Of a stretch of DNA of 64,000 nt, positions 5,647 to 57,760 are shown in pieces (position 1 is the first letter of the stretch; every line of letters begins with the position of its first letter). The translations under genes were made by a program, and so were the position numbers. Under the pieces are notes generated by a model. The model saw nothing but the letters and a program-made list of their open reading frames with translations. It did no database searches and had not been told where the DNA came from. The stretch is from Tuberibacillus sp. Marseille-P3662. GTDB lineage: Bacteria; Bacillota; Bacilli; Bacillales; Sporolactobacillaceae. The stretch is from NCBI RefSeq assembly GCF_900178005.1, contig NZ_FXBS01000005.1, positions 124,001-188,000 on the forward strand, written 5' to 3'.

Positions 5647-6035
5647 ATAAAAAGGGTCTGGAACAAAAGTATATTCGTCACATATGAAAATAGCTATTCC
5701 TGTCATTGCTTCGCCAAAATCCTTCGCTTGCCGCGGGCACGGCCTCAGCTAACTTGGTAAAAAAACCTTTACCAAGTGGATCTTCGGCTCGTGCTCCTGC
5801 ATCTTCAAGTCTATTCAGAGAAGCAATATGCTTCGTCGCAGTCCAAAGAAGGATATTCTAAGGCGTTCGTGCTCCTGCATCTTCAAGCCTATTCAGAGAA
5901 GCAATATGCTTCGTCGCAGTCCAAAGAGGCATATTCTAAGGCGTTCGTGCTGTTCCCGCAGGCGTCTACGTATTTTGACGACGCTTAGAACTTGTTATTG
6001 CCGTATTTTTATATTTAATTGACCACAAATAACAA
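5647..6035 (-). repeat. dispersed intergenic element, expanded copy
   Basis: This noncoding stretch matches the reverse complement of the element at 38432-38647. The shared left part runs from a GGTCTGGAACAAA end through ATTCCTGTCATTGCTT and CTTCGCTTGCCGCGGGC. The shared right part is AGGCGTCTACGTATTTTGACG (ACATATTTTG in the other copy) and an AT-rich tail. Between them this copy holds an extra hairpin (ACTTGGTAAA / TTTACCAAGT, about 5752-5780) and two 78-base tandem units. It has no coding capacity; open frames here are low-complexity artefacts. Confidence 0.7.
5791..5946 (+). repeat. two 78-base tandem repeats inside the dispersed element
   Basis: Units 5791-5868 and 5869-5946 are nearly identical, each starting GTGCTCCTGCATCTTCAAG and ending with AAGGCGTTC. 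A partial third unit (GTGCT) follows. The few differences show that the duplication is recent or conserved by conversion. Confidence 0.9.
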
Positions 6036-6401: not shown

Positions 6402-6452
6402 ATTGGTATCCCCCTTAGCTTTAATAATCCTCAAATATTTGTATTCTAACAT

Positions 6453-6883
6453 GTAATCTAAAAATTTCGTTTCCGTTGAGCGAAAATAAATAAGTTGTCT
6501 CTTTAACTAACTGACACGGTAATTATTCTCCTTCCATAGTTTAGCAGGTGATTTAACAGGGGTTTTAAATGATGAAAAGGGTATGCACATTACCTATACC
6601 CCTGCCTGGTCGTTAATATAATAATACTGTAACCAAATGATTAAATGATTGTTTAGTGATTATTAATAGGGGTGAAAATCTGACTTACACATTACGTAAT
6701 TCAGATCACAAATAGCAAGTCTAATCGTGTGGAATCAGTTGGTGAGTGATGAGCCATTCCGTCCAGACGGGTAAAGCCAAACAGTAATGGATGTAGGGTA
6801 GGGGAGCAACGTCCGTCATTGTCAGGGTGTTGCTTTTTCTAGTTTTTGTTATATTTGAATATATGCAGAGGGTTAGATGCTTT
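6453..6883. other. AT-rich intergenic stretch without a recognisable gene
   Basis: No open frame here has a convincing ribosome site or a recognisable product. A weak GCAAC/GTTGC hairpin followed by T residues (6806-6838) precedes the iteron array, in the same position as the stronger hairpin at 8357-8384 before the second array. Confidence 0.5.
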
Positions 6884-7040
6884 GTATACAATTTCGAGTA
6901 CATGAATACGTTGTGTATTCTTTATGTACTCATTTTTGTGTACAAGATTACAAATACGTACGCATATTGATTCAATAGTATGTATACATTTTAGTTGCGT
7001 TGTATACTAATATGCATGCATGTTTTCTATTTTGTAAACA
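6884..7040 (+). repeat. centromere-like iteron array A
   Basis: AT-rich DNA with repeated GTATAC-type words at 6884, 6982 and 7002, and intervening TACATGAATAC, TGTATTC and GTGTACAAG motifs. It aligns base for base, with nearly the same spacing, to array B at 8434-8600 just before parM. Such repeats upstream of parM-parR operons act as parC centromeres bound by ParR. This copy has no intact par gene behind it. Function as a centromere is inferred from the homology and from array B's position. Confidence 0.6.
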
Positions 7041-8160
7041 AAGACATATTAAGGAATAAAGGAAATGAATATATGGAAAGAATCCCTCATTTATAGAAGG
7101 ACAAATGGTGATAACAATGATTAAGACTGAAATCAGCGAGTGAAAAGGTGTCAAAAGGTTATAACCTGTTAAACAGACAAAGATGGTATATAGATAGAGG
7201 CGAAAAATGATTGTATTATGAATGTGGCCTTTGACTATTTAAAAGTAGTGAGAAACGCAACGCAAGATGATAAGGTAGAGGTTCTTGTATGTTGGAACTA
7301 TAGGATGATTTGGGCTTGTGCCATGACAGATAAAGGTGGTGATGGCCATTGGGTTTCATTAGGTCCATTCCGAACTTTTTCATTGTTGTAAATCCTACCT
7401 CCGTGTCCAACTCGCACTAATGTACTTTTAAAATGAGCTAAATTCCTTTATAAATCTAGGTCACACATGGAAATGCCATATGGAGGCTATTCCAAATGAA
7501 GCAAAAGTAAAATAACTCTATCTTTGATTCTGATTGGTTTTTTAGTGGTGGGGGGGGTATTGGATCAAAATGTAAAAAAGTAAATGTGAGTTGACAAAGG
7601 AAGTTGTTGAACGACCCACCGCTTACGAAAAAAACACTTATGTTGAAGAGGGGGATTCCTACAAGGATTAGAGCAATCGCTTATAGTCTTAGTAGGCCGG
7701 TAGTCCCTATGGTGACTGTGAATGACTTTTTACGTTGGGCTCCATCAATCTAGGGTACTGCTTGGTTTTCGCCTTTCGTCTAAATGGGACGATTGAACAA
7801 TGAAAATTTCTCGTTGCAGATGGCATTCCTGCAATAACCTTATATCTTCAGCTTTCGATGATCAAATATTTTACTGTTGAATCTGATGATCTAAATGATT
7901 GACGATGATGAAATCCATGCTTATTTAGAGTGTTTTTTCTTGCCAATTCGTTAGTCCTTTCATTGCGGAGGATAAGGATTGATGAAGAAAATCCATTACT
8001 GTAAATCAAAATAGGTGTGAGCCCTTTGCTGAAATTGTTTGTACGTTTACTGAAACGTGTTTAGTCGTTGATAACCTTTCCATTCCTTTAATTCCTTAGT
8101 CTGTATAAAGTTTGTTTCTGAATCAGATAATATTCTTGATCATGTTTGATTTTATAAATA
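7041..8160. other. gene-poor, probably decayed accessory DNA
   Basis: About 1.1 kb between the two iteron arrays has only short, broken frames. A frame at 7218-7391 (57 codons, containing CWNYRMIWACAMTDKG) reads protein-like but lacks a good ribosome site. Around 7610-7670 a frame reading VVERPTAYEKNTYVEEG ends at stops after about 25 codons. A run of eight G residues lies at 7550-7557. This looks like remnants of one or more genes that once followed array A. Confidence 0.4.
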
Positions 8161-8180
8161 AACAGGAGGGGACTATCTGT

Positions 8181-8333
8181 ATGGTCAATAAGGAAAAAGA
8201 ATGGAATAATCAGTTTAAAAAGAACAAGAACAGCGGTGAGCATAAGAATGGCCGTCTGAGTCAATTTAAAAACAATGCTGCCGATGGCGAAGAAACACCA
8301 AATGAATACGTTAGTAAAAAAGACGAGGAATAG
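8181..8333 (+). CDS. small hydrophilic protein of unknown function
   Basis: A 50-residue, highly charged protein rich in lysine, asparagine and glutamate, starting at an ATG 8 bases after a strong AGGAGGGG site and ending just before a terminator (8357-8384). No hydrophobic core or known motif is visible, so it may be disordered, like small spore or DNA-binding proteins. I do not recognise the family. The strong ribosome site and the terminator are the reasons to call it. Confidence 0.55.
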   Translation: MVNKEKEWNNQFKKNKNSGEHKNGRLSQFKNNAADGEETPNEYVSKKDEE

Positions 8334-8356
8334 GAAGATGAAGAGGAAACGTTTAG

Positions 8357-8384
8357 GCAACGTTCATATCTCAATGAACGTTGC
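8357..8384 (+). terminator. intrinsic terminator after the 50-residue gene
   Basis: Perfect 11-bp stem GCAACGTTCAT / ATGAACGTTGC with a 6-base loop, then TTTTA. It separates the small gene from the iteron array. Confidence 0.8.
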
Positions 8385-8433
8385 TTTTACTTATTAAGTA
8401 TTTTATGTATATAAATAGTCTATAAAAAGATAG

Positions 8434-8600
8434 GTATACAATAGTGAATACATGAAAACATTATGTATTCTTTGTGTTTTCGTTTCCGTTTACAAGAATA
8501 CAATGACGTATGCATTTTGTTTATTAGCGATGTATACATAATTGTTTATGTTGTATACAAACTAGCGTACAAGTTTGCGTTTTTGCTTACGAAGTTGTAT
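8434..8600 (+). promoter_or_regulatory. centromere-like iteron array B (putative parC and parMR promoter region)
   Basis: GTATAC-type words at 8434, 8532 and 8553, with TACATGAA, TGTATTC, TTTACAAG and GACGTATGCAT motifs between them, directly upstream of parM. Type II partition loci typically carry a repeated centromere here that also serves as ParR operator. The array is collinear with array A. The call rests on repeat content and position. Confidence 0.6.
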
Positions 8601-8642
8601 AAATAAACTATAACTCTATTAAGTGAGAAAGGATTGGTAAAT

Positions 8643-9833
8643 GTGAGTCAATCGAGAGTAGCGGCCATTGATGTCGGAAACGATTCGGTGAAAGCTTTAT
8701 TCGGAAAGTTAGATTCAGAATTATACATACCAAATGTCACAGCCATCGATACAGAGGATCGTCCCGTCATTGGCATTGAAGACTTGGACAAGAAGGACCC
8801 ATTAGATGGTATCCATATTAGGGTTCACTCCCCTGCCCTACAAGAAAATAACACCATTTATCGGGTTGGTAATCTAGCAACTAAGGCAGACAACGCTACT
8901 GAGTTAGATCCTGGTAGCAGTAAATCAGAAGAAGATCAGACTTTAGTGATGTTGCTAGCTTCTATGGCTTTAGATGCCGTCAAACCGGAAAATAAACAAG
9001 TCTTTAATCGGTCTAATCAAGTTGTTGAAGCTAATTACACATTGGGTACTGGGTTGCCGCTTCGTGAAGTGAAAGAAGGCAAGGATGTCGGCTATCGCTC
9101 GCAATTGCTTGGTTCCGTTCACCAAGTGGAGTTTTTGGTCACGCCAAAATATCAAGGTCTTAAAGTTAATATCAAACTGGATGAAGTTAAAATTTACCCT
9201 GAAGGCTTTGCTGCTTTTATTAATCTTGTGATGGATAACAACTTGAATATTATTAATAAAGATTTAATTGATAAGCAAATCTTGATTCAGGATATCGGTG
9301 GTTTATCCACGGATATTGCTGTGATTCGGAATCGCAATGTCGATGATGACAAGGCGCAAGGGTATAACTTAGGTGTATCTGAAGCCTTGGAAACGATTAG
9401 AGATGAAATTAATAAGAAGCATGGGGTTGAATTGGACAGCCGACGTGATGTGGTTGATATCATTACGAAGAAAAATGACCGTAACCACATTATGGTCAAA
9501 GGTAGCCGGACCAGCGTTCACGACATTACGGATCGGGTGCTTCTTGAATTAGCGAAGAAACAATATCGTCATTTGCGCAATACGTGGCAAAGAAACTCGC
9601 AAACGGAAATCTGTTATTTTGTCGGCGGCGGATCTAGTGTATTAAAAGATTATATTAAGACCTTAAATAATAGTTTAGATGGATTTAATATCGATTTCTT
9701 TGAAGATGAGAAAGAGAGCATTTGGATGATGGCTAATGCTTACTACAAGTTGATTAGTGAATTCATCCAACAACAGAGCAAAGATAAACAAGAAAAACCA
9801 GCCGAGAAACAAAAAGCAGCATCCAATAAATAA
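8643..9833 (+). CDS. parM: ParM/StbA-like actin-fold ATPase
   Basis: A 396-residue actin-like ATPase. Nucleotide-binding motifs in order: phosphate-1 AAIDVGNDSVK near residue 7, phosphate-2 IQDIGGLSTDIAVI near residue 219, and the adenosine motif YFVGGGSSVLKDYI near residue 326. Type II partition ATPases form filaments that push plasmid copies apart. The C-terminal 20 residues are a Lys/Gln/Glu-rich tail. GTG 8643 is chosen because it lies 9 bases after GAGAAAGGA; TTG 8634 abuts that site. It is followed 11 bases later by an RHH adaptor gene and preceded by a repeat array, completing a parCMR layout. Chromosomal copies usually mark integrated plasmids or phages. Confidence 0.85.
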   Translation: MSQSRVAAIDVGNDSVKALFGKLDSELYIPNVTAIDTEDRPVIGIEDLDKKDPLDGIHIRVHSPALQENNTIYRVGNLATKADNATELDPGSSKSEEDQTLVMLLASMALDAVKPENKQVFNRSNQVVEANYTLGTGLPLREVKEGKDVGYRSQLLGSVHQVEFLVTPKYQGLKVNIKLDEVKIYPEGFAAFINLVMDNNLNIINKDLIDKQILIQDIGGLSTDIAVIRNRNVDDDKAQGYNLGVSEALETIRDEINKKHGVELDSRRDVVDIITKKNDRNHIMVKGSRTSVHDITDRVLLELAKKQYRHLRNTWQRNSQTEICYFVGGGSSVLKDYIKTLNNSLDGFNIDFFEDEKESIWMMANAYYKLISEFIQQQSKDKQEKPAEKQKAASNK

Positions 9834-9844
9834 GGTGATGTTTT

Positions 9845-10450
9845 ATGGCGAATACCGAGATTAAAAGGGGCCAGGCCATTACGTTCCGCATTCCTTCAGA
9901 TACCCCTGACCATCTATTGAAGCAGTTGCAACGTCTAAAAGAGACGGAGCGACGTAACTTTTCTAGTAAAATGGCGGAGTACGTGTTAGAAGGGGTTAAT
10001 CAGTCGTTGACAAAAGACAAGGAAGCATTGACGATACCGCTTCCGAAAATGTTAAGTCAATCTCAGCGTAATTGGGTCAAGCATGAACATTCTGAAGCGC
10101 TTCTAGGAACGATCATGTATCAGTTAATTGCTGATCCTGTGCGCTCGGCATCATTGTTGGCATCGTTAAACAGTGATGCCCTAGACATAGACGAAGCATT
10201 GTATCTTCAGGAGCAGCCAGAGTCAGCGCCATTAGAACAGCAGGTAAAACATCAAGATGAAAAGGTAGAAATAGAGTCTGAGGAACCTCAGGTTGATCAA
10301 CCTTTAGGTGATATCGAAGACGATTTAGCAAATTTTGATTGGAATGAGGCTCAAAAGCAAGTCGCATCTTCGGAAGAGGAAACAGAAGAAAAGGAAGAAG
10401 AAAGTACAGAAGATCTCCTTGGAGGTTTTCTATCTCGGATGAATCAATAA
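9845..10450 (+). CDS. parR: ParR-like centromere-binding adaptor
   Basis: A 201-residue protein. Residues 1-55 resemble a ribbon-helix-helix DNA-binding domain (beta strand QAITFRIPSD followed by two helices ending in MAEYVLEGV), as in ParR. The middle (55-120) is helical. Residues 120-201 are very acidic and rich in Glu, Gln and Asp, probably a flexible tail for contact with the filament. Its position directly after parM identifies it as the adaptor that links the repeat centromere to ParM. The assignment comes from context and fold pattern; sequence identity to known ParR is low by nature of the family. Confidence 0.72.
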   Translation: MANTEIKRGQAITFRIPSDTPDHLLKQLQRLKETERRNFSSKMAEYVLEGVNQSLTKDKEALTIPLPKMLSQSQRNWVKHEHSEALLGTIMYQLIADPVRSASLLASLNSDALDIDEALYLQEQPESAPLEQQVKHQDEKVEIESEEPQVDQPLGDIEDDLANFDWNEAQKQVASSEEETEEKEEESTEDLLGGFLSRMNQ

Positions 10451-44857: not shown

Positions 44858-44967
44858 TTCCTAAAAATGGATAAGAGCGCAATAAACGGTCTAAAGAGCG
44901 CAATTCCTTGTAGAAAGGCCGCAATTCCACGTAAAAATAGCGCAATTCTCATTCAACTCGCCGCAAT
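44858..44967 (+). repeat. GCGCAATT array copy 1 (110-base direct repeat)
   Basis: This 110-base segment is, by eye, identical to 46057-46166 and contains five CGCAAT units spaced about 20-22 bases apart. It begins with the same final 17 bases that close the NERD gene (TTCCTAAAAATGGATAA), although no intact NERD frame precedes it. Confidence 0.95.
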
Positions 44968-46073: not shown

Positions 46074-46166
46074 GAGCGCAATAAACGGTCTAAAGAGCGC
46101 AATTCCTTGTAGAAAGGCCGCAATTCCACGTAAAAATAGCGCAATTCTCATTCAACTCGCCGCAAT
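46057..46166 (+). repeat. GCGCAATT array copy 2 (110-base direct repeat)
   Basis: Second copy of the array at 44858-44967. Its first 17 bases encode the last four codons and stop of the NERD protein. A frame running through it is low-complexity and not a real gene. Confidence 0.95.
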
Positions 46167-56205: not shown

Positions 56206-56382
56206 TAAAAACCCCTCTTCAGTAAGAAGAGGGGTTCAAATCATTATTGCATATGAAACAACCACGCTCTTCTTATCTTACAAGCCTAAAGACTTGTCGG
56301 AATTGGCACGGTGCTTCATGTTTTGAAGCCCGCTGCCGAGGTTTCAAAGGGCCGTTCCCTCCACCTCTCTGGATAAGAAGTT
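56206..56382 (-). ncRNA. SAM-I (S-box) riboswitch with terminator
   Basis: On the minus strand: CTTATCCAGAGAGGTGGAGG, the P2/P3 core ACGGCCCTTTGAAACCTCGG, GCACCGTGCCAATTCC and a closing GATAAG, matching the S-box consensus. A terminator (AACCCCTCTTC / GAAGAGGGGTT, then T residues, 56206-56236) follows, before metN. When SAM is bound transcription stops and methionine import falls. Confidence 0.95.
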
Positions 56383-57659: not shown

Positions 57660-57760
57660 TAAAACAGCGCAATTCCGTTTAAAAACAGCGCAATTATGTG
57701 CAGGAAAGCGCAATTCTCTTTAAAGAAGCCGCAAATCACTTTACAATTGCCACAATTAAT
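57660..57760 (+). repeat. GCGCAATT array, divergent copy
   Basis: Five CGCAAT-type units at about 20-21-base intervals immediately after the twin P-loop gene. Units run GCGCAATT, GCGCAATT, GCGCAATT, GCCGCAAA and GCCACAATT, in the same order of types as at 44.9 and 46.1 kb, but with different bases between them. Confidence 0.85.

Follow-up and report, generated by a model that had tools for sequence, protein, structure and literature searches.

A putative chromosomal, origin-proximal ParMRC locus of Tuberibacillus sp. Marseille-P3662 with a second centromere-like array in cis

Analysis of a stretch of 64,000 nucleotides from Tuberibacillus sp. Marseille-P3662 (hereafter the window) indicated that it probably carries an origin-proximal, vertically inherited ParMRC locus in which array A, an upstream array, would be a second and still constrained ParR-binding centromere beside array B, which adjoins parM. 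The features of the locus are as follows.

6803 to 6836, forward strand: terminator-like hairpin before array A, GCAAC...GTTGC followed by a T-rich stretch (-14.4 kcal/mol, z -3.2)
6883 to 7040, forward strand: array A, upstream copy and second centromere-like array (13 TGTATACA-type words; profile E=5e-23)
7041 to 8432, no strand: spacer between the arrays, non-coding, no parM or parR remnant (tblastn, blastx)
8181 to 8333, forward strand: 50-aa ORF, lysine- and asparagine-rich, ending just before the array B terminator
8355 to 8386, forward strand: intrinsic-terminator-like hairpin before array B, 13 pairs (-20.0 kcal/mol, z -7.7)
8433 to 8591, forward strand: array B, centromere-like, adjoining parM (13 TGTATACA-type words; profile E=2e-22; orthologous arrays in the same place in 80 named loci)
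8643 to 9833, forward strand: parM, actin-like partition ATPase, 396 aa (Pfam, PHROG, Foldseek)
9845 to 10450, forward strand: parR, predicted DNA-binding adaptor, 201 aa (position after parM; profile match)

Alignment of the nucleotide sequences of the two arrays revealed that they are homologous. The GTATAC words of array A begin at positions 6884, 6982 and 7002 (offsets 0, 98 and 118) and those of array B at 8434, 8532 and 8553 (offsets 0, 98 and 119), exactly where the original prediction of twin arrays had placed them. Without gaps the arrays are 78% identical over 89 nt and share a further block offset by the same 1550 nt, and their local alignment scored 68 against 12.3±2.0 (maximum 21) for 1000 pairs of dinucleotide shuffles. 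The alignment starts with the 3' arm of the hairpin, GTTGCTTTT, and ends near 7050/8604. The array unit is an imperfect palindrome, TGTATACA, of which G2 and C7 are almost invariant. In both arrays the words are spaced 12-8-11-11-12-8-12-24 and then 20/21-12-8-12 bp (20 in array A), and the same expected word, near 6993 in A and 8543 in B, is missing from both, so that A and B appear to share an ancestor that postdates its loss.

The G and C of GnnnnC are intact in 13 of 13 words in A and B alike. The core word bases of the two arrays agree at 49 of 52 positions and the other bases at 55 of 94, with a p value of 2e-6 that is indicative rather than exact since the words had been chosen to fit the register of the arrays; expressed as mismatches, 41% of the non-core positions differ and 6% of the core positions. 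A profile built from the arrays of 29 relatives, with the window left out, scored array A as high as array B, and among the best-ranked candidates of the 3.68-Mb genome exactly these two arrays rose above noise. Judged by its 13 intact words and by a score equal to that of B on the outside profile, array A does not seem eroded; it is likely still functional and a candidate ParR site.

The same kind of array was found directly 5' of the orthologous parM in the loci of 80 named relatives. The family array comprises about 14 words in about 160 bp; in the fullest relatives the words follow at 12, 8, 11, 11, 12, 8 and 12 bp, then after a gap of 24 bp at 12, 8, 12, 8 and 12 bp, which matches the spacing of A and B, and the commonest distances between word pairs over the 80 loci were 20, 12, 8 and 42. 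Whole-genome searches, in which the top-ranked candidates of each genome were scored so that weak distant arrays could escape, revealed the array in all 24 ParM-bearing genomes (that of the window and 23 others), with best matches of 32-90 bits, and all significant matches in the 23 others lay beside parM. Among the candidates scored in 30 genomes of the order that lack this ParM there was no convincing array, the best match being 17 bits in two of them. The original prediction had read both arrays as centromere-like, and this distribution bears it out.

In plasmid par loci whose ParM is about 42% identical, about four words of this kind (TGTATACA, TGCATACA and TGGATACA) are located at the parM promoter, while the plasmid loci examined gave no match to the 14-word array profile. 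The comparison with related genomes and plasmids that had been suggested at the outset returned the same array in the relatives and the same word type in the plasmid loci. The words are identified as putative ParR sites by comparison, from the link between array and parM, from the plasmid words at the promoter and from the homology of the plasmid proteins in the ParR position. The spacing of about one word per helical turn would suit a row of ParR dimers. That the array is the ParR site and that the locus is native to the chromosome are, taken jointly, very probable.

As had been predicted, array B lies directly before parM and parR. The ParM-like product of 8643-9833 matched the Pfam families Alp7A_like_C (5e-36) and ALP_N (4e-8) and the partition protein PHROG 691 (3e-39), while its match to the sequences of solved structures was weak (E 0.006). 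A Foldseek search with the low-confidence ParM model returned BtParM, Alp7A and Dh-cParM1, and also the cyanobacterial CorM filament. The ORF 3' of parM, 9845-10450 in the window, is conserved in all named loci. Its product in the window had no Pfam match and no significant sequence match among solved structures, whereas profile-profile comparison (hhalign) with the plasmid proteins in the ParR position gave a probability of 99.8 and an E value of 1e-28. The predicted ParR consists of an N-terminal strand-helix-helix, an acidic linker and a C-terminal tail, DDLLGxFLxxMNK, which is kept among 35 aligned relatives. Helices 22-34 and 39-49 follow a strand-like ITFRIP and would fit a ribbon-helix-helix; the fold search with the model (pLDDT 67) was unmatched. 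The predicted structures are modest for ParR (pLDDT 67) and poor for ParM (pLDDT 51) because there is too little variation within the family. Among the features of a type II (ParMRC) locus, an actin-like ParM ATPase, a parR beside parM and an iteron array beside the operon were found.

Both arrays are preceded by GCAAC..GTTGC hairpins, as the original prediction held. RNA folding indicated a strong terminator-like stem 5' of array B and a weaker one 5' of array A; as they resemble transcription terminators, the hairpins were set aside as a part of the centromere. The DNA behind array A, described at first as decayed, is indeed 1.4 kb of non-coding sequence save for the 50-aa ORF, but nothing shows that it was once a par cassette. 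Searches of positions 6450-8430 with ParM and ParR by tblastn gave a best E of 0.4, and blastx of the spacer against the ORFs of the 80 relatives matched only the window's own ORF; with tblastn against all loci compared, the 50-aa ORF matched this genome only. Between the arrays of the two-array relatives there is no gene longer than about 116 aa and none that is shared, these spacers being likewise non-coding. The lack of a par trace behind A and the non-coding spacers of the relatives suggest that an array and its terminator edge were duplicated, and not a cassette of which one copy eroded. Upstream of array A, at positions 5789-5951 of the window, a non-coding tandem repeat with a 78-nt unit (2.1 copies, 96% matches) was also noted.

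Of 397 genomes sampled from the order, 200, belonging to 55 of its 136 genera, carry a single-copy ParM orthologue at 78-85% identity, and orthologues at 76-80% identity occur in some genomes of the class outside the order. Beneath this range, the wider class sample showed a gap in identity down to 44% or less; the plasmid relatives stand at about 42%. One ParM frame (G097:C20:24190-25359) carries a single in-frame TAA, which may reflect a recent loss or an error in sequencing. The ParM phylogenetic tree tracks the genera, with 18 label changes against a minimum of 14 and 44.5 after shuffling, and groups the window with Scopulibacillus. The parMR of a record titled Pseudomonas sp. ISL-84 (L058) groups within Cytobacillus, and that assembly is probably misnamed or contaminated. 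No ParM homologue was found in phages, and a phage origin was set aside.

Of the 15 genomes with dnaA and parM together on a contig of known length, 14 have the two genes 35-108 kb apart (48 kb in that of the window) and one has them 234 kb apart; in seven further genomes the contig opens with dnaA at base 1 and parM is close to its far end. In all 22 genomes parM occupies the same side of dnaA, with transcription directed away from the origin. Two genes for ParB-family proteins (soj-spo0J/Noc type) lie between dnaA and parM in the window's genome. The immediate neighbours of parMR differ between genera, so that the locus has held its place with respect to the origin without a conserved local synteny; with only parM and parR common to all loci, an operon or island with conserved neighbour genes was rejected. 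The best explanation of these sequence comparisons is that the window holds a type II (ParMRC) partition locus that is resident on the chromosome and vertically inherited.

The presence of two arrays in cis, part of the original prediction, is real and is also seen in other lineages. Extra arrays occur in about 10% of genomes, in several lineages. Whole-genome searches (best candidates) showed multiple arrays in 5 of the 24 genomes, namely that of the window, G001 (three), G034, G352 and G371; among the 80 named loci, L037, L038, L058, L067, L071 and L079 likewise have extra arrays. In G034 (L004) the arrays flank parMR, one upstream of parM and one past the parR position, and both are oriented like parM. 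In G001 (L017), which belongs to the window's own family, three arrays, each weaker than usual, lie in a row upstream of parM (C9:6982-7758). The second arrays of the window, L038 and L037 are most like their own partners and the three of G001 resemble each other, so that these duplications look like separate events, while the second arrays of L058, L067 and L079 (Cytobacillus) were inherited together.

Three other explanations were weighed against a resident ParMRC locus with a constrained second centromere. The original prediction had suggested a duplicated par cassette, one copy of it eroded, and possibly the scar of an integrated plasmid. In favour of this, the system is of the plasmid type and the only intact gene behind array A in the spacer is the 50-aa ORF; however, no par remnant lies there, orthologues occur in 55 of 136 genera at 78-85% identity against about 42% on plasmids, and a single-copy gene with a constant place relative to dnaA and a tree that tracks genera points to vertical inheritance. 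We regard such a scar as highly improbable. That array A is a dead duplicate without present function, like B only through recent copying or gene conversion, has somewhat more in its favour, for no gene lies behind A, the array is 1.55 kb away and the word loss near 6993/8543 common to A and B implies an ancestor after that loss. Against this, the differences between A and B are concentrated outside the core (41% against 6%), array A scores like B on a profile from other genomes and second arrays recur in several other lineages, which makes a dead copy rather unlikely.

It is also possible, if unlikely, that the array is the parMR operator only and that ParM was taken over for a cytoskeletal job in cell shape or envelope, the chromosome being left unmoved. 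There is a precedent in FcmB of Nostoc, a plasmid ParM turned chromosomal cell-shape protein (PMC12645912), and the structure search with the low-confidence ParM model also returned the cyanobacterial CorM filament. However, autoregulation in the plasmid relatives uses only four promoter words and not about 14 words over 160 bp, extra array copies that arise without a gene behind them are not expected of a cytoskeletal gene, and neither is the keeping of one side and one orientation near the origin.

Actin-type ParMRC systems are known from plasmids, in which ParR dimers coat the parC words and the tail of the resulting clamp catches the ends of ParM filaments. In the parC of R1 and pSK41 a cluster of iterons, about one word per helical turn, is located upstream of parM; the locus described here differs in its words and in having two arrays 1.55 kb apart in cis. 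The type II ParMRC of Bacillaceae and Paenibacillaceae plasmids (pBM69, pPPKN03045 and pBkBDGP4A; Alp7A-related) have the same gene order, with words 5' of parM and parR after it, a ParM about 42% identical, a homologous ParR (hhalign probability 99.8%) and the same kind of word or a variant of it. They differ in having about four promoter words, while here an array of about 160 bp is chromosomal and origin-proximal and a second array is possible. ParABS with parS is likewise a segregation locus near the origin, with other proteins and another site; no parS within 2 mismatches was found in the 64-kb window. The sole Rfam match in the window was a SAM riboswitch (S-box leader; 56270-56379, reverse strand, 92 bits). 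Two 21-nt tandem repeats of one consensus, AAAGAGCGCAATTCCACGTAA, are located 1.2 kb apart at 44893-44948 and 46092-46147, and a related array, AAAAGCGCAATTCTC..., follows some 11 kb beyond them at 57660-57743.

Chromosomal ParMs were reported in 2025 in J Biol Chem, where two were characterised (Dh-cParM1 and Cb-cParM) and Bt-cParM1/2 of Bacillus tropicus (WP_001968526.1 and WP_000025611.1) were listed and reported as conserved among the chromosomes of several Bacillus species (PMC12270681). These genome-encoded cParMs resemble the present locus in that parMR lies on chromosomes and is conserved within a genus; they differ in that the accessible text of that paper gives no origin-linked position or array family, the comparison with Bt-cParM1/2 being one of descriptions. 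FcmB/FcmC (CorM) of filamentous cyanobacteria is a chromosomal ex-plasmid ParMR acting on cell shape (PMC12645912); it too is a plasmid ParMR settled in a chromosome, whereas here the array is strictly retained beside parMR. In the accessible text of PMC12270681 and in the other papers found, the origin-linked position, the 14-word array and the duplication of the array are not described. As far as these sources go, novelty appears to lie in the conserved placement near the origin, in the array of 14 words and in the recurrence of a second array, while chromosomal ParM was already known.

We infer ParR binding to the arrays, filament formation and a role in the positioning or segregation of the origin. 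ParR dimers would bind the TGTATACA words of array B in a row, about one per helical turn, and the ParR-coated words would come together as a clamp, from which the conserved C-terminal tail of ParR would contact one end of a ParM filament. A filament growing from one clamp to another, or from a clamp to the end of the cell, would move or hold the origin region. Array A would be a cis duplicate of the array alone and probably a second loading site 1.55 kb from B; it would double the loading sites per chromosome and might make the clamp stronger or promote pairing in cis. That the locus acts on the segregation or positioning of the origin region seems slightly more probable than the contrary. 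Counting against it, half of the order is without this ParM, and since two ParB-family proteins are already near the origin, a second segregation system may be dispensable. We give about even chances to the wider proposal that about one in two of the genomes sampled from the order has, beside a ParB-type system, a native actin-driven ParMRC whose dedicated centromere, with about 14 words, is located 35-110 kb from oriC, that this system pushes, pulls or tethers sister origins, and that a second cis centromere was gained independently in several lineages to strengthen or pair it.

If true, this would be the first actin-type machine that segregates a chromosome rather than a plasmid. The occurrence of a single chromosomal locus in about half of the genomes sampled, beside the origin wherever measured, suggests that an actin filament helps to position or separate chromosomes in these bacteria. 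With a single-copy, vertically inherited and origin-proximal ParMRC and its putative centromere in about half of the genomes sampled, this can be tested in many non-pathogenic species, and the natural one-array and two-array genomes offer a ready comparison for centromere dosage in cis.
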